41,732 nt of DNA. It comes from Hydrogenophaga sp. (GTDB lineage Bacteria > Pseudomonadota > Gammaproteobacteria > Burkholderiales > Burkholderiaceae_C). How positions within the stretch are numbered: position 1 is the stretch's first letter; the number at the start of each line of letters is the position of its first letter. The translations under genes were made by a program, and so were the position numbers. This document shows, piece after piece, positions 7,799 through 20,555 of this stretch. Under the pieces are notes generated by a model that was given only the letters and a program-made list of their open reading frames with translations, had not been told where the DNA came from and did not search any database. The stretch is taken from assembly GCA_018993155.1 (NCBI GenBank), contig JAGKSX010000021.1:1-41732 (forward strand). Reading direction: 5' to 3'.

Positions 7799-9145
7799 AT
7801 GAAAGCAGTTTCGTCCGCCCGCACATCGTCTCTGTTTCCGCTGGCGGTCATGCTGGCGCTGGGGTCGCTCGCCACCGGTGCCCAGGCGCAGAGCCTGGTT
7901 CAGCTGTACGAGGCGGCGCGCGGGTTCGATGCCACCTACCTGGCCGCGCGCTCGCAATACGACGCGTCCTTGGCCCAGGCCGCGCAGGCCCGTGCCGGCC
8001 TGCTGCCGCAAGCCGGCCTGGCCGCCGCGGCCAGCTGGGCGCGGCGCGAGGTCAGCAACTACGGCGCGCTCGACGGCAACAGCAACAACCAGAGCGCCAC
8101 GCTCTCCGCCAGCCAGCCGCTGTACCGCCCGGCCAACAGGATCACCAACGACCAGGCCGAGCTCAGCGTCGACATCGCCAAGGCCCGACTCACCCTGGCC
8201 GAGCAGGACCTCATCGTGCGCACCTCGCAGGCCTACTTCGACGTGCTCGCGGCGCAGGACACGCTGGCCTTCGTGCAGGCGCAGAAGACCGCCGTGGCCG
8301 AGCAGCTGGCCGCGGCCAAGCGCAACTTCGAGGTCGGCACCACCACCATCACCGATTCGCGCGAGGCGCAGGCCCAGTACGACCTGGTGCTGGCGCGCGA
8401 AATCGCGGCCGAGAACGACCTGCGCGTGAAGAAGCTCGCGCTCAACCAGCTGGTGGGCCGCCCCTCGGTGGAGCCGCGCCCGCTGGCCGCGCCCGTGACC
8501 CTGCCCGAGGTGGTGCCGGCCGACCCGCAGGCCTGGGTGGACCGCAACCCCGGCACGCACCCGACCATCCTGCAGGCCACGCGCAACCTGGAAATCGCCC
8601 AGCTCGAAACCAGCAAGGCCGAAGCCGGGCACAAGCCCACGCTGGACCTGGTCGGCCAGTACCAGGTGGCGCGCGGCCCCATGACCACCCTGCCGATCCC
8701 CGGCAATGTGCGCACCAACACCGCCAGCGTCGGCGTGCAGTTCAACCTGCCGCTGTTCGCCGGCTTCGCGGTCCAGAACCGGGTGAAGGAAACCCTGGCG
8801 CTGGAAGAAAAGGCGCGCGCCGACCTCGAGGCCGCGCGCCGGGGCGTGGACCTGTCCACGCGCAGCGCCTACCTGGGCGTGGTCTCGGGCCAGGGCCAGG
8901 TGCGTGCGCTGCAGGCCGCCGAGGCCTCCAGCCAGAGCGCGCTGGACGCCAACCGCCTGGGTTACCAGGTGGGCGTGCGCATCAACATCGACGTGCTCAA
9001 CGCGCAGAGCCAGCTGTTCCAGACCAAGCGCGACCTGGCCCAGGCGCGCTACAACGTGCTGCTGAGCAGCCTGCGCCTGCGCCAGGCCAGCGGCGCCCTG
9101 CTGCCCGAAGACCTGCTGCCCATCGATTCCCTGCTCTCGAAGTGA
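7799..9145 (+). CDS. TolC-family outer-membrane efflux protein
   Basis: Protein of 448 residues with a signal peptide of about 30 residues ending 'ATGAQAQS', then two repeats of the outer-membrane factor fold with long amphipathic helices ('RASQAYFDVLAAQDTLAFVQ', and near the C-terminus 'QSQLFQTKRDLAQARYNVLL'). It opens with 'LVQLYEAARGFDATYLAARS', characteristic of the TolC (rather than NodT lipoprotein) branch; there is no lipobox. AAGGA at 7786-7790 gives a good ribosome site. It would provide the exit duct for the RND pump upstream and probably for type I secretion as well. Its separation from the pump by two unrelated genes and a hairpin repeat suggests separate expression. Confidence 0.92.
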   Translation: MKAVSSARTSSLFPLAVMLALGSLATGAQAQSLVQLYEAARGFDATYLAARSQYDASLAQAAQARAGLLPQAGLAAAASWARREVSNYGALDGNSNNQSATLSASQPLYRPANRITNDQAELSVDIAKARLTLAEQDLIVRTSQAYFDVLAAQDTLAFVQAQKTAVAEQLAAAKRNFEVGTTTITDSREAQAQYDLVLAREIAAENDLRVKKLALNQLVGRPSVEPRPLAAPVTLPEVVPADPQAWVDRNPGTHPTILQATRNLEIAQLETSKAEAGHKPTLDLVGQYQVARGPMTTLPIPGNVRTNTASVGVQFNLPLFAGFAVQNRVKETLALEEKARADLEAARRGVDLSTRSAYLGVVSGQGQVRALQAAEASSQSALDANRLGYQVGVRINIDVLNAQSQLFQTKRDLAQARYNVLLSSLRLRQASGALLPEDLLPIDSLLSK

Positions 9146-9168
9146 GCTCCGCTACACTCGACCGCCAA

Positions 9169-9188
9169 GTTGGCGTCAGCCAGCCAAC
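9169..9188 (+). other. Small inverted repeat after tolC-like gene
   Basis: GTTGGC (9169-9174) and GCCAAC (9183-9188) can pair in the 62-bp gap before the next gene. There is no T-tract; it overlaps the region where the next gene's leader would lie. Possible weak terminator or leader hairpin. Confidence 0.3.
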
Positions 9189-9207
9189 ACCCGCAGAAGA
9201 GGAAGCC

Positions 9208-9948
9208 ATGCAGACCGTCAACGTGTTGTGCATCAAATGGGGCAGGAAGTACGGCCCCGAGTACGTCAACAAACTCCACAGCATGGTGTCGCGGCACCTG
9301 CACCGGCCCTTCCGTTTCGTCTGCCTGACCGACGACGGTGAAGGCATCGACCCCGCCGTCGAGGTCAAGCCCATCCCCGCCGTGGGTTTCGACGAATTCG
9401 ACCAGCGCAAGCCCTGGAGCTTCGGCCACGGCTGGCTCAAGCTCACCAGCTTCGCCGATCCGCTCTACGACCTCACCGGCCAGACGCTGTTCCTCGACCT
9501 GGACATCGTCATCGTCGACAGCCTGGACGAGTTCTTCGACCAGCCCGGCACCTTCATCGTCATCAAGGAATGGGACAAGAAGGACGGCACGGGCAACACC
9601 TCGTGCTACCTCTACACCATCGGCGCGCACGCCGACGCCCTGGAGCACCTGAAGAACGGCTACCCGGAGTCGATCGCGGACGTGCGCAACGAGCAGGAGT
9701 ACATCACCGGTTACCTCAACCGGCAGGGCAAGGTCAGCTACTGGCCCGAGGCCTGGTGCCGCAGCTTCAAGCGCCACTGCATGCGCCCGGGCATCCTGGG
9801 CTGGTTCTCGCCGCCCACCATCCCGCCCGGCGCCAAGATCATCGTGTTCCACGGCAAGCCCAACCCACCCGATGTCATTGCCGGCGTGAGCGGCAAGTGG
9901 TACCGGCGCGTGTTGCCCGCCCAATGGGTCGCCGACCATTGGCGCTGA
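9208..9948 (+). CDS. Putative GT-A glycosyltransferase of the LPS locus
   Basis: Protein of 246 residues, not matched to a named gene. The N-terminal 'VNVLCIKWGRKYGPEYVNKL' resembles the opening of nucleotide-diphospho-sugar transferases. 'QTLFLDLDIVIVDSLDEFF' (about residues 90-108) supplies a DxD-type metal/nucleotide-sugar motif, and 'HGKPNPPDV' near the C-terminus resembles the closing motif of GT8-like enzymes. AGAGGAA precedes the ATG at 9208; an in-frame ATG at 9142 would overlap the TolC stop and is less likely. It overlaps the next gene by about 25 bp, implying coupled translation with WaaA-KdkA and a role in LPS core assembly. Donor and acceptor are unknown. Confidence 0.7.
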   Translation: MQTVNVLCIKWGRKYGPEYVNKLHSMVSRHLHRPFRFVCLTDDGEGIDPAVEVKPIPAVGFDEFDQRKPWSFGHGWLKLTSFADPLYDLTGQTLFLDLDIVIVDSLDEFFDQPGTFIVIKEWDKKDGTGNTSCYLYTIGAHADALEHLKNGYPESIADVRNEQEYITGYLNRQGKVSYWPEAWCRSFKRHCMRPGILGWFSPPTIPPGAKIIVFHGKPNPPDVIAGVSGKWYRRVLPAQWVADHWR

Positions 9949-11957
9949 GCAGCCCGGTTTCGCTGCCCCATCGGGCGTACCGACTGCTCAGCCGCGCCCT
10001 GGCCGCTCCCCTGCTGGGCTGGTTGTGGTGGCGTGGCCGGCGTGAGCCCGGCTACCGCCAGAACCTGCGGCAGCGCCTCGGTTTCATTCCCATCGACCCC
10101 GAGCAGCTCGGCTGCATCTGGATCCACGCCGCCTCGGTGGGCGAGGTGCAGGCCATGCAACCGCTGCTGCACGCCCTGCTCGAAGAATGGCCCGCGCACG
10201 CCGTGGTCGTCAGCACCCAGACCCCCACCGGTGCGCGCGCGCTGCAGACGCACTGGGGCGACCAGATCCGCCACGTCTACGCGCCCATCGACACGCCCGG
10301 TGCCGTCGCCCGCTTCCTGAACCGGCTGCAGCCCCGGCTGCTGATCCTCGTGGAGCGCGAGCTCTGGCCCGAATGGCTGCAGCAGTGCAGGGCCAACGCG
10401 ATCCCGGTTGCGCTCGTCAACGCGCGCCTCTCCGAAGGCTCGGCGCGCACCTACCGGCGATGGCCGGGCCTGATGCGGCCCGTCTGGCCACAGCTCACGG
10501 TGGCGGCCGCCGACACCACCAGCGCCGAGCGCCTGCGCGGGCTGGGCGTGCCCGAGCCGCGCCTGCACGACACCGGCAACCTGAAATTCGATGTCGCCGT
10601 GCCCGCCGCGCGCGTGGCGCTGGCGCCCGAGCTGCAGGGGCGCACGCTGCTGGTGGCGGGCAGCACGCACGAAGGCGACGAGGCCGCCTGGCTGGCGATC
10701 TGGAGCGAGCTCTCGCCAGTCAACCCGAGCTGGCTGCTGGTGCTGGTGCCGCGCCATCCCCAGCGCTTCGACGAGGTCGCGGCCCACGTCCAGCACAGCG
10801 GCCTGAGCTTCGTGCGGCGCAGCAGCGGGCAGGCGGTGTCACCAGGCACGCAGGTGCTGCTGATCGACGCCATGGGCGAGCTCATGCACTGGTACCAGCA
10901 CGCCTCGCTGTGTTTCGTGGGCGGCACGCTGGCGCCCGTGGGCGGGCACAACCCGCTGGAGCCCATGTCGGTCGGCCAGCCGGTGCTGTTCGGCCCTCAC
11001 GTCCACAACGCAGCGCCGCTGTTCGAGGAGATCGCGCGCAGCGGCGCGGGCGAGCGCGTGCGCGACGCGCGCGAACTCGCGGCGGCGGTGCAGCGCTGGC
11101 TGATGCAACCCGAGACCTGGCAACGCCGCGCCCACGCCGCGCGCGAGCTGATCGCCCGCAACCAGGGCGCCTCGGCGCGCACACTGGCCGTGGTGCGGCC
11201 GCTGTGGCGGCCCGCGCACACCGGCAACGTGTCGCGCGTGCGGGCCTCGGTGGACGCAGGCCGCACCGCCTGGTTCGATCCGCACCACCTGAGCCAGGTC
11301 AGCGCGCGAACCTTCGACCCGATCGCCCATGTGGGCGGCACGGCCCTGGCCACGGGCAGCGGGCGCGGCCAGGCGCTGCTGGTCCACGAGGGCGGGCAAG
11401 GCTATGTGCTGCGCCACTACCGGCGCGGCGGCCTGATGGCCCGCCTGAGCCACGACCGCTTCTGGCGCGCCGCCCCGCACGACAGCCGCGCCATGCGCGA
11501 ATTCACCCTGCTGCGCCTGATGCGCTCCTGGCAACTGCCGGTGCCCGAGCCGGTGGCCGCCAGCCACTGGCCCCGCGCCGGTCTGTTCTACGAGGCCGAC
11601 ATTCTCGTCGGCCTCATCCCGGGCAGCGCGAACGTGGTGCAACGGCTCCAGCAAGGGCCGCTCGCGCCAGCCGAATGGCAGGCCCTGGGCCGCGCGATCC
11701 GGCAACTGCATGAGTGGCAGGTGTTCCATGCCGATCTGAACGCCCACAATCTGCTGCTAGACCAGGCCGGCCAGGCCTGGATCGTGGACTTCGACAAATG
11801 CGGGGTGCGCCCGGGCAGCGACTGGAAAGCGCGCAACCTGGAGCGTCTGCGGCGCTCGCTGCGCAAGGAAGCCACCCGCGTCACCCCCTACCACTGGACC
11901 GAAGCCGACTGGGCCCCGCTGATGGCGGGCTACCAGGATCGACCCCCTCCCCCATGA
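9924..11957 (+). CDS. waaA: WaaA-KdkA fusion: Kdo transferase plus Kdo kinase
   Basis: One open frame of 677 residues encodes two enzymes. Residues about 15-432 are Kdo transferase WaaA: N-terminal membrane helix 'ALAAPLLGWLWWRGRREPGY', catalytic Glu74 in 'IHAASVGEVQ', and 'GGTLAPVGGHNPLEP' in the nucleotide domain. Residues about 440-677 are 3-deoxy-D-manno-octulosonate kinase KdkA: 'GYVLRHYRRGGLMARLSHDR', catalytic-loop 'FHADLNAHNLLLD' and metal-binding 'WIVDFDKC'. Adding Kdo to lipid IVA and phosphorylating it would thus sit in one membrane-associated protein. The first ATG of the frame near the preceding stop is 9924; TTG at 9939 is an alternative. The stop overlaps the next start (ATGA). 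Confidence 0.9.
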   Translation: MGRRPLALSSPVSLPHRAYRLLSRALAAPLLGWLWWRGRREPGYRQNLRQRLGFIPIDPEQLGCIWIHAASVGEVQAMQPLLHALLEEWPAHAVVVSTQTPTGARALQTHWGDQIRHVYAPIDTPGAVARFLNRLQPRLLILVERELWPEWLQQCRANAIPVALVNARLSEGSARTYRRWPGLMRPVWPQLTVAAADTTSAERLRGLGVPEPRLHDTGNLKFDVAVPAARVALAPELQGRTLLVAGSTHEGDEAAWLAIWSELSPVNPSWLLVLVPRHPQRFDEVAAHVQHSGLSFVRRSSGQAVSPGTQVLLIDAMGELMHWYQHASLCFVGGTLAPVGGHNPLEPMSVGQPVLFGPHVHNAAPLFEEIARSGAGERVRDARELAAAVQRWLMQPETWQRRAHAARELIARNQGASARTLAVVRPLWRPAHTGNVSRVRASVDAGRTAWFDPHHLSQVSARTFDPIAHVGGTALATGSGRGQALLVHEGGQGYVLRHYRRGGLMARLSHDRFWRAAPHDSRAMREFTLLRLMRSWQLPVPEPVAASHWPRAGLFYEADILVGLIPGSANVVQRLQQGPLAPAEWQALGRAIRQLHEWQVFHADLNAHNLLLDQAGQAWIVDFDKCGVRPGSDWKARNLERLRRSLRKEATRVTPYHWTEADWAPLMAGYQDRPPPP

Positions 11958-13192
11958 CCCCCCCGTCCACCCTCCTTCAGCAGGGCGCCAAGGCTTCGCT
12001 CACCCTGGCCTTCTTCGCGTTCCCGATGTCGGTCGCGCTCGCCAATGTGGCGCTGCTGCTCACCCTGGTGTTCTGGCTGCTTGGCTGCGTCTGGGGCCAT
12101 TCGCTGCGCGACACCCGCCAGGCGCTGAGCAACCCCCTGGCGCCGCCGGCGCTGGCGCTGTTCGCCTGGATCGCGCTCGCGGCCCTGTGGTCGCCAGCCG
12201 AGGGGCCGCTCATTGGCGCGGCGCTGGGCAAATACAGCAAGCTGCTGTGGGTGCCGGTTTTCATCGGCCTGCTCAACGACCCGGCCATGCGCCGCCGCTG
12301 CGCTCAGGCCTTCGCGCTGGCCATGCTGTTCACGCTGGTGGTCACCTGGCTCAATGTCTGGTTCGATTTCTCCTGGACGCGCACGCACAACCAGGGCTTC
12401 GGCGAGGACCACACCGTCTTCAAGGACCGCATCGCGCAAGGCATCCTGATGTCGTTCTTCACGGTGATGGCCCTGCACCAGGCCATGCGTGCGCCGACGC
12501 GGGCCCGGGGCGTGCTCGCCGCCCTGGTGGCCGCGCTGGCGGCGTTCAGCGTGCTGTTCCTGTCGTCGGGCCGCACCGGCTACCTGGCCCTGCTGCTGGC
12601 CCTGGCGGTGTTCGCGGTCTTCGCCGTCGGCCTGCACCGGCGCCGGCTGGCCATCGCGGCACTGGCCCTGGTCGCCGTGATGGCCATCACCTTCACCACG
12701 TCGACCCAGCTGCGGTCGCGCGTCAACGAGGCCTGGCTCGAAGCCCGGGACAGCAGCATCACGGTGCCTGTCACGTCTGCAGGCGCCCGCATGGAGATGA
12801 ACCGCTTCGCGCTGCAGAGCGCGCTGGAGCACCCTGTGCTCGGCCACGGCACCGCGTCCTACCCGGTGCTGTCGCCCACGCATTTCACCGATCCTGCGTG
12901 GTGCGCCGTGGTCTGCGTGCACCCGCACAACCAATTCGCCTTCTTCCTGTTCGAACAAGGCCTGATCGGCCTGGCCCTGTTCCTGTGGTTCGTGTTCGCC
13001 ATCGCACGGCAGGCCTGGCGCGAAGACACGCCGCGCCGGGCGCTCATGATGGGTTTTGTGACGGTGCTGCTGGTCGCCAACACGACGCACAGCTCGTTCT
13101 GGCTCTCGACGGAAAACCATTTCTTCATCCTGATGTCCGCGCTGCTGATGGCCGCCATCCCGATGCGCCAACGGGAGCGGGTGGCCCCATGA
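11954..13192 (+). CDS. O-antigen ligase / polymerase family (WaaL-like) membrane protein
   Basis: Polytopic protein of 412 residues with about 10-12 hydrophobic helices. The large periplasmic loop and following helix contain 'HPVLGHGTASYP' and 'CVHPHNQFAFFLFEQGLIGL', typical of the Wzy_C/O-antigen ligase domain where a conserved histidine is needed for ligation. It would join O-antigen or another glycan from undecaprenyl diphosphate to lipid A-core on the periplasmic face. It begins inside the stop of the WaaA-KdkA gene (ATGA at 11954) and ends in another ATGA overlap with the next glycosyltransferase, so the three are translationally coupled. WaaL versus Wzy cannot be settled from sequence alone; context favours ligase. 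Confidence 0.82.
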   Translation: MTPPSTLLQQGAKASLTLAFFAFPMSVALANVALLLTLVFWLLGCVWGHSLRDTRQALSNPLAPPALALFAWIALAALWSPAEGPLIGAALGKYSKLLWVPVFIGLLNDPAMRRRCAQAFALAMLFTLVVTWLNVWFDFSWTRTHNQGFGEDHTVFKDRIAQGILMSFFTVMALHQAMRAPTRARGVLAALVAALAAFSVLFLSSGRTGYLALLLALAVFAVFAVGLHRRRLAIAALALVAVMAITFTTSTQLRSRVNEAWLEARDSSITVPVTSAGARMEMNRFALQSALEHPVLGHGTASYPVLSPTHFTDPAWCAVVCVHPHNQFAFFLFEQGLIGLALFLWFVFAIARQAWREDTPRRALMMGFVTVLLVANTTHSSFWLSTENHFFILMSALLMAAIPMRQRERVAP

Positions 13193-14250
13193 CGAAGACC
13201 ATCGCCTTCCACTCCAACCAGCTGTCGATCCGGGGCACCGAGGTCGCGCTGTACGACTACGCGCTTCACAACGAGACGGTGCTGGGCCACCGCAGCCTGG
13301 TGGTCTACAACGCCGACAGCCCGCACAACAGCGCCGAGGCCCTGGCCAAGTTCAGTGCGCGCTTCGAGGTGCTGGGCTACCGCCGGATCGACGAACTCGA
13401 TGCCCTGCTCGGCCGCCACCACGCGGACCTGCTGTACGCCATCAAGGCCGGCAAGAACGACGGCGTGTGGTCGCGCACGGTGCCCACCATGGTGCACGCG
13501 GTCTTTCCAACCAACCCCGCGCAGGCCCATGGCGCCTCCTACGCCTTCATCTCCGAATGGCTGAGCCGGCATTGCGCGAACGGCAATATCCCCAGCGTGC
13601 CGCACATCGTCGAGCTGCCGGATGTGAACGAGGACTTGCGCGTCGAACTGGGCATCCCGCCGCAGGCCAAGGTGCTGGGCTGCCACGGCGGCGCCAACAG
13701 CTTCGACGTGCCCAGCGCCATCGAGGCGGTGCGCCAGGTGCTGGCGCGTTCGCCCGACACCTGGTTCGTCTTCCTCAACATCGCGCCCTTCGTGGACCAC
13801 CCGCGCGCCCTCTTCCTGCCGGGCAGCAGCGACATGGTCTACAAGACGCGTTTCATCAACACCTGCGACGCCATGCTGCACGCGCGCCTGCAGGGCGAGT
13901 CCTTCGGGCTGGCGTGCGGCGAGTTCTCGATCCGCAACAAGCCCGTCATCACCTATGCGCGCGGCAAGCACCGGCACCACATCGACGTGCTGGGCGACTC
14001 GGGCTTCTGCTACACCGATGCGCGCTCGCTGGTCGACATCATCGAGAAGCTGGACCCGCAAGACCTGAAGCGACATCACTGGGACCGGTATTCCGCGCTC
14101 TACAACCGGGACGTGGTGATGGGCCTGTTCGACCGGTACCTGATCCAGCCCGCGCTGCGCAACCCCGACCGCACGAAACCCCAATTGAACCTGCGCTGGG
14201 TCGACCAGCTGCCGTACTACCGGCTCAAGCTGAGCATGCGCTTCGGCTAG
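13189..14250 (+). CDS. GT-B-fold glycosyltransferase, LPS core
   Basis: Protein of 353 residues of the two-Rossmann (GT-B) type. 'IAFHSNQLSIRGTEVALYDY' at the N-terminus is the acceptor-domain glycine loop. 'HARLQGESFGLACGEFSIRN' at about residue 230 is the E-x7-E-like donor motif of GT4/GT1-type enzymes. The substrate is not recognisable. It is coupled to the WaaL-like gene by an ATGA overlap at 13189. Its stop TAG at 14248-14250 overlaps the stop of the convergent minus-strand gene in the palindrome CTAG, leaving no room for a terminator between the two units. Confidence 0.78.
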   Translation: MTKTIAFHSNQLSIRGTEVALYDYALHNETVLGHRSLVVYNADSPHNSAEALAKFSARFEVLGYRRIDELDALLGRHHADLLYAIKAGKNDGVWSRTVPTMVHAVFPTNPAQAHGASYAFISEWLSRHCANGNIPSVPHIVELPDVNEDLRVELGIPPQAKVLGCHGGANSFDVPSAIEAVRQVLARSPDTWFVFLNIAPFVDHPRALFLPGSSDMVYKTRFINTCDAMLHARLQGESFGLACGEFSIRNKPVITYARGKHRHHIDVLGDSGFCYTDARSLVDIIEKLDPQDLKRHHWDRYSALYNRDVVMGLFDRYLIQPALRNPDRTKPQLNLRWVDQLPYYRLKLSMRFG

Positions 14251-17402: not shown

Positions 17403-17519
17403 AGGGTTTTTCCTCGTGACGGGCAAAACGGGCATTGTAGGAGGGGGTCTCCATCATGCCGGAGGCACATGTCCGGAAACGGCCAGTCAACCCCGTCCGA
17501 ACGGCCTACCATGGCAGCC

Positions 17520-19040
17520 ATGAACCGCTCAGACCGCATCGACGAAGACGCCTGCTACCGCGCGCTGTGCTCGCACGACGCGCGCTTCGACGGCCAGTTC
17601 TTCACCGCCGTCACCTCCACCGGCATCTACTGCCGGCCGGTGTGCCGCGTGCGCACGCCCCGGCGCGAGAACTGCCGTTTCTTCACGCACGCCGCGCAGG
17701 CCGAACAGGCGGGCTTCCGGCCCTGCCTGCGCTGCCGGCCCGAGCTGGCGCCACGCGAGCGGCATTGGTCGACGGAAGACGCCTCCACCATCCTGGTGCA
17801 GCAGGCCACGCTGTGGCTGGACGACCCCCAGCACTGGCAGGACGACGACGGCGGTGCGATGGGCGAGCGCCTGGCGGCTCGGCTGGGCGTGAGCGACCGC
17901 CACCTGCGGCGCGTGTTCGAGGAACGCCTGGGCGTCTCGCCGCTGCAGTACCTGCTCACGCGCAAGCTGCTGACGGCCAAGCAGCTGCTGGCCGACACCG
18001 ACCTGCCCGTCACCCAGATCGCCCAGGCCAGCGGCTTTGCCAGCGTGCGGCGCTTCAACGCGGCCTTTCTCGAGCACTACCGGCTCAACCCCACGCAGCT
18101 GCGGCGCGAAACCGCCACCCGCGCCCGCGACGCCGGCCAGGGCACCCCGGTGCGGCTGGGCTACCGGCCGCCGTACGACGTGGCGGCCACGCTGGGCTTC
18201 TTCCGCCAGCGCCTGATCGACGGCGTGGCCTTCGTCGACGAACAGGGCCTGCGCCTGGGGCAGACCCTGCGCATGGAGCTGGGCGGGCGCACCCACAAGG
18301 GCTGGCTGGTGGCCGGTTTCGACGAGGCCCGCTGCCAGCTCGAGCTGCGAGTCAGCGACGACCTGCGCGAGGTCTTGCCCCAGGTGATTCACCGCCTGCG
18401 CGCCGCGCTCGACCTGGACGCCGACCCGACCGCCATCAACGCCGTGCTGCACGGCGCGTTCCCGGCCGGCGATGGCCTGCGGGTGCCCGGCGCGCTCGAC
18501 GGCTTCGAGCTCGCGGTGCGCGCCGTGCTCGGCCAGCAGATCACCGTGGCGGCCGCGCGCACGCTGGCGCAACGGCTGGTGAACCGCTTCGGCGAGCCCA
18601 TCGAGACGCCGCACGCCGGCCTCTCCCGCCTGTTCCCCAGGCCCGCCGCACTGGCCCAGGCCGAAGGCGACGGCTTGGGGGAACTCGGCATCGTGCGGCA
18701 GCGCCAGGCCGCCATCGTGGCGCTGGCGCGCGGCGTGGCCGAGCAGGGCCTCGTGCTCAACGGCAGCGCCGACGTGCCCGCCACCCTCACCGCCCTCAAG
18801 GCCATGCCGGGCATCGGCGACTGGACCGCGCAGTACATCGCCATGCGCGCCCTGCGCTGGCCCGACGCCTTCCCTGCGGGTGACGTGGCACTGCACAAGG
18901 TCATGGGCGTGCGCGAAAGCAAACACCCGGCCCGCGAGGCCGAAGCCGCCTCCCTCGCCTGGAAGCCCTGGCGCAGCTACGCCGTCGTGCGCGCCTGGTC
19001 GGCAGGCAACGTCGTCTCATCCACAGGAGCATCCGCATGA
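17520..19040 (+). CDS. AdaA-AlkA fusion: methylphosphotriester sensor and 3-methyladenine DNA glycosylase II
   Basis: Protein of 506 residues with three parts. Residues 1-75 are the Ada zinc domain: Cys38, Cys42, Cys69 and Cys72 have exactly the numbering of E. coli Ada, which supports the 17520 start over the in-frame ATG at 17511. Cys38 is the expected acceptor of methyl from phosphotriesters. Residues about 110-195 are an AraC-type double helix-turn-helix. Residues about 210-506 are an AlkA glycosylase with the helix-hairpin-helix 'LKAMPGIGDWTAQYIAMRAL' and catalytic Asp455 in 'FPAGDVALHK'. Known fusions of this type sense alkylation and excise alkylpurines. An ATGA overlap couples it to ogt. 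Confidence 0.93.
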   Translation: MNRSDRIDEDACYRALCSHDARFDGQFFTAVTSTGIYCRPVCRVRTPRRENCRFFTHAAQAEQAGFRPCLRCRPELAPRERHWSTEDASTILVQQATLWLDDPQHWQDDDGGAMGERLAARLGVSDRHLRRVFEERLGVSPLQYLLTRKLLTAKQLLADTDLPVTQIAQASGFASVRRFNAAFLEHYRLNPTQLRRETATRARDAGQGTPVRLGYRPPYDVAATLGFFRQRLIDGVAFVDEQGLRLGQTLRMELGGRTHKGWLVAGFDEARCQLELRVSDDLREVLPQVIHRLRAALDLDADPTAINAVLHGAFPAGDGLRVPGALDGFELAVRAVLGQQITVAAARTLAQRLVNRFGEPIETPHAGLSRLFPRPAALAQAEGDGLGELGIVRQRQAAIVALARGVAEQGLVLNGSADVPATLTALKAMPGIGDWTAQYIAMRALRWPDAFPAGDVALHKVMGVRESKHPAREAEAASLAWKPWRSYAVVRAWSAGNVVSSTGASA

Positions 19041-19537
19041 AACACGATCCCCTCACCGTCTTCACCACCTGGCAAGGCCCGATGGGCGCCATGACGCTGG
19101 CGGCCACGCCGCGCGGCCTGAGCGGCGTCTGGTTCGACGGGCAGCGCCACGGCCCGGACCGCGCGGCCTGGCGCCACGACCCCGACCACCCGGTGCTGCG
19201 CCAGGCCATCGAACAGCTCACGCAGTACTTCGCCGGGCAGCGCCAGCGCTTCGAGCTGCCGCTGGACCTGAGCATGGGCACGCCCTTCCAGCAGCAGGTG
19301 TGGCAGGCTTTGCTGGGCATCGCGCCCGGCGCCACCACCAGCTACGGGCGCCTGAGCACGGCCATCGGCAAGCCGGCCGCGGTGCGCGCGCTGGGGGCGG
19401 CGGTCGGCCGCAACCCGATGAGTGTGGTGGTGCCCTGCCACCGCGTGCTGGGCACCGACGGCTCGCTCACCGGCTACGCGGGCGGGCTGGATCGCAAGAC
19501 CGCCCTGCTCTCGCTCGAAGGCGCCATCCGGCTGTGA
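19037..19537 (+). CDS. ogt: Methylated-DNA--[protein]-cysteine S-methyltransferase
   Basis: Suicide repair protein of 166 residues that removes methyl from O6-methylguanine and O4-methylthymine. The active-site motif 'VVVPCHRVLG' places the acceptor at Cys134. 'FQQQVWQALLGIAPGATTSY' is the DNA-binding helix-turn-helix with the family spacing. There is no N-terminal phosphotriester domain; that function is in the upstream AdaA-AlkA protein, so the pair together re-create the activities of a complete Ada system plus AlkA. Start ATG overlaps the previous stop (ATGA). Confidence 0.93.
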   Translation: MKHDPLTVFTTWQGPMGAMTLAATPRGLSGVWFDGQRHGPDRAAWRHDPDHPVLRQAIEQLTQYFAGQRQRFELPLDLSMGTPFQQQVWQALLGIAPGATTSYGRLSTAIGKPAAVRALGAAVGRNPMSVVVPCHRVLGTDGSLTGYAGGLDRKTALLSLEGAIRL

Positions 19538-19549
19538 AGCAGGCGCGAC

Positions 19550-19568
19550 GAACGGCATTGTGCCGTTC
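19550..19568 (+). terminator. Perfect hairpin after ogt
   Basis: GAACGGCA (19550-19557), loop TTG, TGCCGTTC (19561-19568) form an 8-bp perfect stem 12 bp past the ogt stop. A T-run does not follow (CACTCATC), so it may be a pause, an RNA-end stabiliser or a non-canonical terminator separating the repair pair from the EamA gene. Confidence 0.45.
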
Positions 19569-19643
19569 CACTCATCAATCCAGGCCCCATCCGGCATCAA
19601 TCGCGCGCCGAGACCACCGGGGCGCCATGCATACTTTGACGCC

Positions 19644-20555
19644 ATGAGTCCCACCCTCGTCCTGGAATTCCTGCTGCTGGCCGCCCTGTGGGGTGCCTCC
19701 TTCTTGTTCATGCGCCTGGGCGGCGCCGAATTCGGCGCGCTGCCAACGGCCGGCCTGCGCGTCGCGCTCGCCGCCCTCTTCCTGCTGCCGGTGTTCTTCA
19801 TCAAGGGCGTGTGGGCCGACTTCCGCTCGCGCGCCCGGCCCATCCTGTTCGTCGGCCTGCTCAACTCCGGCATCCCCTTCGCCTTGTTCGCCTACGCCGT
19901 GCTGCACATCCCAACCGGCCTGACCTCCATCCTCAACGCCACCGTGCCGCTGTCGGGTGCGCTGGTGGCCTGGCTATGGCTCAAGGACCGGCCGGGCGGC
20001 TCGCGCATGCTGGGCCTGGCGATCGGCTTTGCCGGTGTCACCTTGCTGGTGATCGGCAAGTCCGGTTTCAGCGCGGCCGGGGTGGTGAGCGACGGCCCCG
20101 TGGCCAGCACGCTGATCGCCATGGGTGCCTGCCTGCTCGCCACCCTGTTCTACGGCATCGCCGCGAGCTTCACCAAGCGCTACCTCACGGGCGCCCACCC
20201 GCTGGCCACCGCCACGGGCAGCCAGATCGGCGCGGCCCTGGGCCTGGCCATTCCCACCGCCCTGCTGTGGCCCAGCCAGCCGGTGAGCAGCACCGCCTGG
20301 GGCGCGGTCGCCGCCGTGGCCTTGCTGTGCACGGCCATCGCCTACATCATCTTTTTCCACCTGATCGAGAAGGCCGGCCCGAGCCGCGCGCTGACCGTCA
20401 CCTTCCTGGTGCCGGTGTTCGCGCTGGTCTACGGCTCGGTGTTCCTCAACGAGGTCATCACGCCCTGGATGATCGGCTGCGGCGTGGTCATCGTCTGCGG
20501 CACCGCCCTGTCCACCGGGCTGGTGCGGCTGGGCTGGCTGGAGCGCGCGGCCTGA
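19644..20555 (+). CDS. EamA/DMT-family transporter
   Basis: Inner-membrane protein of 303 residues with about ten helices in two homologous EamA halves. The N-terminal 'LLLAALWGASFLFMRLGG' is the classic first helix of the drug/metabolite transporter superfamily. The second half starts near 'LIAMGACLLATLFYGIAASF'. Members export amino acids, purines or other metabolites; the substrate cannot be told. The ATG at 19644 begins directly at the first helix. It is convergent with the LysR gene, leaving 10 bp between stops. Confidence 0.88.
   Translation: MSPTLVLEFLLLAALWGASFLFMRLGGAEFGALPTAGLRVALAALFLLPVFFIKGVWADFRSRARPILFVGLLNSGIPFALFAYAVLHIPTGLTSILNATVPLSGALVAWLWLKDRPGGSRMLGLAIGFAGVTLLVIGKSGFSAAGVVSDGPVASTLIAMGACLLATLFYGIAASFTKRYLTGAHPLATATGSQIGAALGLAIPTALLWPSQPVSSTAWGAVAAVALLCTAIAYIIFFHLIEKAGPSRALTVTFLVPVFALVYGSVFLNEVITPWMIGCGVVIVCGTALSTGLVRLGWLERAA

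Follow-up and report, generated by a model that had tools for sequence, protein, structure and literature searches.

A Kdo transferase and a Kdo kinase share one reading frame

A 41,732-nucleotide stretch of DNA from Hydrogenophaga sp. (assembly GCA_018993155.1, contig JAGKSX010000021.1; hereafter the window) contains a frame at 9924-11957 (+) that stays open for 677 codons and encodes a WaaA-type 3-deoxy-d-manno-oct-2-ulosonic acid (Kdo) transferase and a KdkA-type Kdo kinase in a single polypeptide of 677 amino acids. A stop-free frame through both enzymes, with their motifs (Glu74, HADLNAHN, and VDFDKC), had been proposed from the letters and their translations (the original prediction), and Pfam and NCBIfam matches to both halves bore this out. 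The WaaA domain (residues 19-427; 9978-11204, +) was covered nearly full-length by NF004388, the best NCBIfam model for WaaA (405.7 bits), and Pfam Glycos_transf_N (PF04413) matched residues 47-224 with an E value of 1.7e-59 (200.8 bits, cut-off 23.9). The nearest Protein Data Bank (PDB) sequences to the fusion protein were the WaaA chains of Aquifex (2xci) and Acinetobacter (4bfc). The linker between the profile matches (residues 428-445; 11205-11258, +) leads into the KdkA domain (residues 446-672; 11259-11939, +), which passed the curated score of the KdkA equivalog NF002475 (246.6 bits versus a cut-off of 142); the same stretch was recovered by the genome search. The Pfam Kdo/WaaP kinase family (PF06293) matched residues 477-670 (E 7e-38).

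We aligned 48 open reading frames (ORFs) with both domains, 39 from Hydrogenophaga and 9 others. One frame, rather than two, held both domains in the window and in the 47 further ORFs. The ATG at 9924 is our best guess for an exact start that is unsure; 19 of the 48 fusions have methionine at the position aligned with it. The motifs were found at the predicted places. Glu74 (codon 10143-10145, +), the Glu of an SVGE motif, is matched in the alignment by the Glu of ASIGE from 2xci, the Aquifex WaaA structure, and we take it to be the catalytic base of the WaaA half. The S-x-G-E pattern (SVGEVQ in the window) had Glu in all 46 fusions with a residue at this site (2 gaps). In the kinase half, the HxD and DFD motifs are represented by the catalytic loop HADLNAHN (from residue 602, with Asp604 and Asn609; 11727-11750, +) and the metal-binding VDFDKC (from residue 621, with Asp622; 11784-11801, +). 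These three residues were invariant across the 47 fusions in which the site is occupied (1 gap). At an E value of 0.001, the window's genome (assembly 94% complete) gave one PF04413 and one PF06293 match, both in frame 9924-11957; the fusion is the genome's sole detected WaaA and its sole detected Kdo kinase.

The fused frame is intact and conserved

A sequencing error near 11200-11260 would have undone the original prediction. Such an error is ruled out by the recurrence of the fusion in five relatives and in 39 of 67 Hydrogenophaga genomes, four of them single-contig assemblies. The relatives, named genome_contigs records, are four from Hydrogenophaga (63-81% identity in the best segment) and a Rhodoferax metagenome-assembled genome (45%). 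Across 49 locus stretches from fusion-bearing genomes (window counted), both domains lay in one open frame in 48; the exception, L255, carries just the 5′ half of a gene whose remainder is on another contig. An artefact of assembly or sequencing, or a broken gene, might be suspected from the 176 contigs of the window's assembly and from two other fragmented assemblies, one with a WaaA half broken over several frames (G343) and one with the halves in different frames (G041). We consider this explanation refuted by the conserved frame and assign it a negligible probability: the gene recurs in the genus, its active sites are intact, and it is under purifying selection.

Selection was assessed from the ratio of nonsynonymous to synonymous change (dN/dS). 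Compared with the closest named relative, L003, the values were 0.21 for WaaA, 0.21 for KdkA, and 0.63 for the linker; for L004, they were 0.31, 0.34, and 0.45; for L005, 0.58, 0.43, and 1.60; and for L006, 0.56, 0.46, and 1.05, respectively, with the reservation that synonymous change is high and that the linker comprises just 31 codons. Purifying selection acts on both domains and is relaxed in the linker. The surroundings of the linker (window residues 424-461) measured 31-39 amino acids across the 48 fusions, with a majority fraction of 0.41 versus 0.66 for WaaA and 0.69 for KdkA. A linker this variable could be cut, and an internal start or linker proteolysis would yield two separate proteins from one frame, which would leave the fusion without mechanistic meaning. 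However, a Shine-Dalgarno-like 4-mer preceded only 3 of 144 in-frame start codons of the linker region, compared with 142 of 1,935 in the rest of the frame. Since these three were few and each lay at a different position, an internal start is not supported. The in-frame junction, moreover, was kept in 48 ORFs, down to about 42% WaaA identity. We therefore regard the production of two proteins as improbable.

The fusion lies inside a surface-polysaccharide locus

The gene directly upstream (9142-9948, +) had no Pfam or NCBIfam match and overlaps the fusion by 25 nucleotides; its product presumably resembles a GT-A-type glycosyltransferase, judging by its DLDIVI and HGKP motifs. A homolog stood next upstream of the fusion in every one of the 39 Hydrogenophaga rows (of 40) that reach the 5′ end, as well as in 8 of 9 loci from other genera. 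It was absent in L144; in the other loci it was 69-80% identical (63% in one piece) and better conserved than the fusion. Downstream, an O-antigen-ligase-like gene (Wzy_C, PF04932, E 1.6e-18; 11954-13192, +) overlaps the fusion by 4 nucleotides and is itself overlapped by a glycosyltransferase-like gene (13189-14250, +) with a weak Glycos_transf_1 match (E 0.00088, below cut-off). Of the predicted overlap or abutment with three lipopolysaccharide (LPS) genes, the first two thus stood and the third did not, since 13189-14250 overlaps the ligase gene instead. In line with the original prediction, the fusion is real, is conserved, and belongs to a surface-polysaccharide locus.

The wider surroundings comprise a TolC-like outer-membrane efflux protein gene (PF02321; 7799-9145, +) and a phosphomannomutase/phosphoglucomutase gene (PF02878-80, PF00408; 16020-17435, −), which form the left and right borders of a slot that appears to have been exchanged (see below). 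Within the stretches examined, the TolC-like gene lay upstream in 37 and the phosphomannomutase gene downstream in 30 of the 40 fusion rows of the genus. Two frames further on (17456-18883 and 18880-19647) are conserved in the locus and had no Pfam or NCBIfam match.

Fusion and tandem waaA genes are mutually exclusive in Hydrogenophaga

Among the 39 Hydrogenophaga genomes with the fusion, 37 gave a single match over nearly the whole query; in the other two, the gene was cut at a contig end (G149) or split over two contigs (G158). Fusion-bearing species include H. palleronii and H. intermedia. In 20 of the 67 genomes, we found two tandem waaA-like frames that are divergent copies. The remaining genomes carried one other standalone waaA (G163 and G181) or waaA pieces at contig ends (G141 and G164), and four of the 67 (G130, G156, G157, and G167) gave no match. 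The fusion and the tandem pair occurred together in none of the 67 genomes, and a match to the kinase half was present in none of the 20 genomes with tandem waaA genes. The tandem pairs (L133, L134, L137-L139, and L257-L271), none of them accompanied by a Kdo kinase, take up the slot of the fusion: the same phosphomannomutase gene adjoins them in 20 of 20 loci, and the TolC-like gene lay upstream in 8 of 20 within the stretches examined. Fusion and tandem pair are mutually exclusive at one locus within the genus. The Glu74-aligned site had Glu in 40 of 40 tandem copies. A second site, Glu146, had Glu in 46 of 46 fusions and Asp in 39 of 40 tandem copies.

Few fusions were found beyond the genus

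We searched partly overlapping samples of increasing breadth; frame length is the basis of "not fused" for all loci other than those read. Sampling the family at roughly one genome for each of 119 genera gave nearly full-length single matches in 3 of 120 genomes (G000, G082, and G089), and G041 matched in pieces. The transferase and kinase halves of G041 lie in different frames of a fragmented assembly, which makes it a doubtful case. A larger family sample had KdkA above the cut-off in 14 of 399 genomes, and in 13 of these 14 a WaaA stretch lay in the same open frame; the fourteenth was G041. In this set, the kinase of G341 is cut by a contig end, and only the C-terminal part of WaaA shares the kinase frame in G343. 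The presence of the fusion in further members of the family, a check suggested with the original prediction, was thus confirmed for 39 of the 67 genus genomes and a few other genera.

The order sample yielded KdkA above the cut-off in 9 of 300 genomes, namely, the window's genome and eight genomes of one other family. The kinase open frames of these eight measured 241-455 amino acids, and no waaA match was found beside them in flanks of about 1.5 kb (10-11 kb for four of the eight). The class sample had KdkA above the cut-off in 95 of 369 genomes, and besides the window's genome only G521 had a frame of more than 600 amino acids. This frame (951 amino acids) was rejected as a fusion, as waaA is encoded on the other strand and converges with kdkA. 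Among the 369 genomes of the phylum sample, 53 had KdkA above the cut-off, with two frames of more than 600 amino acids besides that of the window's genome (G1225 and G1305). The 671-amino-acid frame of G1305 was rejected as well, as no waaA match was present in the 10 kb examined. G1225, a gammaproteobacterium, carries a genuine in-frame fusion. The gammaproteobacterial fusion lies at L287:4127-6199. Twelve other KdkA genomes of the family of G1225, from the class and phylum samples, had kinase frames of 241-352 amino acids. Beyond Hydrogenophaga, a few other genera of its family, and one gammaproteobacterium, no further fusion was confirmed among the sampled KdkA genomes. The statement in the original prediction that waaA and kdkA are separate genes in characterized cases (Haemophilus, Bordetella, and Vibrio relatives) agrees with the order and class samples, which gave no other fused KdkA match, and with the distant genes of Bordetella pertussis.

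A single fusion event and lateral transfer as the simplest reading

All 20 sampled fusions grouped together, with support values in the Shimodaira-Hasegawa-like approximate likelihood ratio test (SH-aLRT) of 97 in the WaaA tree and 96 in the KdkA tree (88 with more kinases). In more careful trees that included L287, the fusions again formed one clade for WaaA (100/99; 64 rows after thinning, with 12 fusions and L287) and for KdkA (96/98; 71 rows, with 20 fusions and L287). L287 was placed inside the fusions of the Hydrogenophaga family in both trees (WaaA, 98/90; KdkA, 95/83); L145 was placed differently between them. L287 lies between unrelated genes in a stretch of 53-58% GC, versus 69% GC in the window. 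Because each domain puts all sampled fusions, the gammaproteobacterial one included, in one clade, one fusion event followed by lateral transfer is the simplest reading of these trees.

In the WaaA tree, the WaaA half was placed on the side of the gammaproteobacteria and separately from 25 of the 27 standalone WaaAs of its family. Its best matches reached 335 bits in the class sample, 315 bits in other families of the order, and 262 bits among standalone WaaAs of its own family, an approximate comparison because one query was 427 and the other 677 amino acids long. As a separate observation, two standalone WaaAs of the family (L016 and L033, from G038 and G051) grouped among gammaproteobacterial WaaAs and outside the clade of their own family. 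The tandem waaA copies sat on long branches (1.17 and 1.24). We place no trust in their position; nonfusion Hydrogenophaga rows were left out of the later WaaA trees.

As a stand-in for a species tree, we used the phosphomannomutase gene (represented in 29 of 40 fusion rows and all 20 tandem rows), which itself borders the exchanged region. Fusion and tandem pair switch no fewer than 6 times on this tree, but only 2 of the changes are forced by starred branches. This suggests repeated exchange between the two states.

Gene arrangements elsewhere offer a possible route to the fusion. Of 31 class-level KdkA loci (L102-L132), 18 had waaA within the stretch, always on the opposite strand in a tail-to-tail arrangement; waaA was not seen in the remaining 13 within the stretch examined. 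Other loci had kdkA before waaA on the same strand (L272, L273, L274, and L278) or the two genes pointing apart (L276). The order waaA before kdkA on the same strand was found in L277, L279, and L280, all from the family of the gammaproteobacterial fusion. An inversion, which the tail-to-tail arrangement elsewhere would have required, was dropped as a step in the origin of the fusion in view of these three loci. The kinases of this family adjoin the fusions in one KdkA tree (support of 95), together with one kinase each from families f170 and f185. L277 (2191-5502) shares with the fusion the order of waaA before kdkA on one strand; the difference is that a heptosyltransferase-family gene on the other strand separates them (PF01075, E 4e-51; TIGR02193, 129.7 bits, below the cut-off of 185.3). 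Loss of such an intervening gene would join the waaA and kdkA frames. An arrangement of the L277 type is therefore a possible forerunner, and this route is consistent with the data.

The protein is predicted to transfer and then phosphorylate Kdo

An AlphaFold2 model of the whole protein (9 sequences) had a mean predicted local distance difference test (pLDDT) score of 72.4 and a predicted template modeling (pTM) score of 0.63, and most 10-residue blocks of the WaaA half had a pLDDT above 75. A Foldseek search of the PDB placed WaaA first (2xci, E 9.3e-22; 4bfc, E 2.5e-14), and the 50 PDB matches listed consisted of WaaA and other GT-B-like enzymes. A long N-terminal helix in the model (residues 14-40) is presumed to serve as a membrane anchor. 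For the kinase half, the sequence search gave no PDB chain better than E 0.036.

We propose, with a probability of roughly 70%, that the fusion encodes a two-domain membrane enzyme which transfers Kdo to lipid IVA and then phosphorylates the same Kdo at O-4. The WaaA half, held in the inner membrane by the first helix, would move Kdo from cytidine monophosphate-Kdo (CMP-Kdo) onto lipid IVA. The kinase half, carried on a flexible linker of about 30 residues, would then use ATP to phosphorylate O-4 of this Kdo on the same side of the membrane. The phosphate would stand in for a second Kdo, so that later acylation and core assembly could proceed. Three lipid A acyltransferase-like places were found in the window's genome. 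Both activities, the membrane anchoring, the O-4 site, the addition of one Kdo per lipid, and the coupling of the two steps are what we infer here. In Haemophilus influenzae, B. pertussis, and Vibrio cholerae, KdkA is paired with a WaaA that adds a single Kdo (PMC3078933, PMC10743493, PMC3178793). In B. pertussis, Kdo has to bear either a phosphate or a second Kdo, with O-4 as the site of either (PMC10743493). For H. influenzae WaaA plus KdkA, rescue that depends on both activities is reported (PMC10743493). By analogy, Kdo-4-phosphate lipid IVA is a plausible product, with the WaaA half adding one Kdo. The single detected WaaA and single detected kinase of the genome fit this analogy, and it is the analogy that supports the originally predicted core with one phosphorylated Kdo.

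Several observations weigh against this proposal. The 405.7 bits of the WaaA half fall short of the curated lipid IVA Kdo transferase equivalog score of NF004388 (438), for which reason we term it WaaA-type. It lies outside the clade formed by WaaAs whose genes are tail-to-tail neighbors of kdkA, and KdkA was found in the genomes of only 4 of the 29 best-matching class-level WaaA loci, compared with 95 of all 369 genomes of the class sample. The dN/dS of the domains climbs to 0.43-0.58 against more distant relatives. The kinase half was modeled with low confidence (10-residue blocks of 33-82, mostly below 66), so no interdomain interface was interpreted from the model. Lastly, heptosyltransferase I (TIGR02193) was not found in the window's genome, with no candidate in the 94% complete assembly; the same search was positive in Escherichia coli and four other control genomes. 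The core may therefore differ from those that underlie the analogy. Beyond Kdo it may be unusual, perhaps without heptose; another possibility is that the assembly lacks the part that carries the gene.

The position outside the KdkA-linked clade and the score below the equivalog cut-off mean that the WaaA half may add two Kdo residues, with the kinase acting on a terminal or second Kdo or on only a fraction of the molecules. The WaaA phylogeny, for what sequence trees can indicate, gives one-Kdo addition no specific support, and the scarcity of KdkA around the best-matching WaaAs points the same way. However, WaaA adds one Kdo in the kinase-bearing Haemophilus, Bordetella, and Vibrio, and O-4 takes either a phosphate or a second Kdo (same sources as above). 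On balance, we consider the addition of two Kdo unlikely and retain the transfer and phosphorylation of a single Kdo as the preferred reading.

The fusion counts as evidence of functional coupling between Kdo transfer and Kdo phosphorylation, and it provides one polypeptide in which the transfer-then-phosphorylate step could be assayed. A structure of the kinase half would be informative because no PDB chain matched it better than E 0.036. Species with the fusion and species with tandem waaA genes at one locus constitute a natural experiment on the required occupant of Kdo O-4. More tentatively, one slot in one genus might hold two chemistries for the first Kdo: a fused transferase-kinase, which would make Kdo-4-phosphate, or tandem transferases without a kinase, which would add a second Kdo-like sugar. 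The fusion would then be a coupled unit acting on a core possibly without heptose and possibly born by the loss of a heptosyltransferase gene between waaA and kdkA, and the cassette would have been exchanged between species together with the upstream glycosyltransferase-like gene. This combined picture is a speculative one, and we hold it to be somewhat doubtful as a whole.

Comparison with known systems

A search of titles and abstract openings in open-licence literature, limited in its coverage, gave no description of a WaaA-KdkA fusion, an absence that is not proof. The fusion is a new variant of a known pathway, apparently undescribed within the literature searched. B. pertussis, a betaproteobacterium whose single Kdo is phosphorylated, has the same two activities that are predicted here; there, however, they are encoded by two distant genes, kdtA (BP0095) and kdkA (BP2349) (PMC10743493). 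The kinase half resembles KdkA of Haemophilus, Vibrio, and Bordetella in that it passes the curated cut-off of NF002475 and keeps the HxD and DFD motifs, whereas KdkA elsewhere is free-standing. The N-terminal half shares sequence, fold, and the conserved motif Glu with WaaA/KdtA enzymes of family GT30 (Aquifex 2xci, Acinetobacter 4bfc, and Bordetella KdtA). These known enzymes stop after the transferase domain, whereas in the Hydrogenophaga protein a kinase continues in frame.

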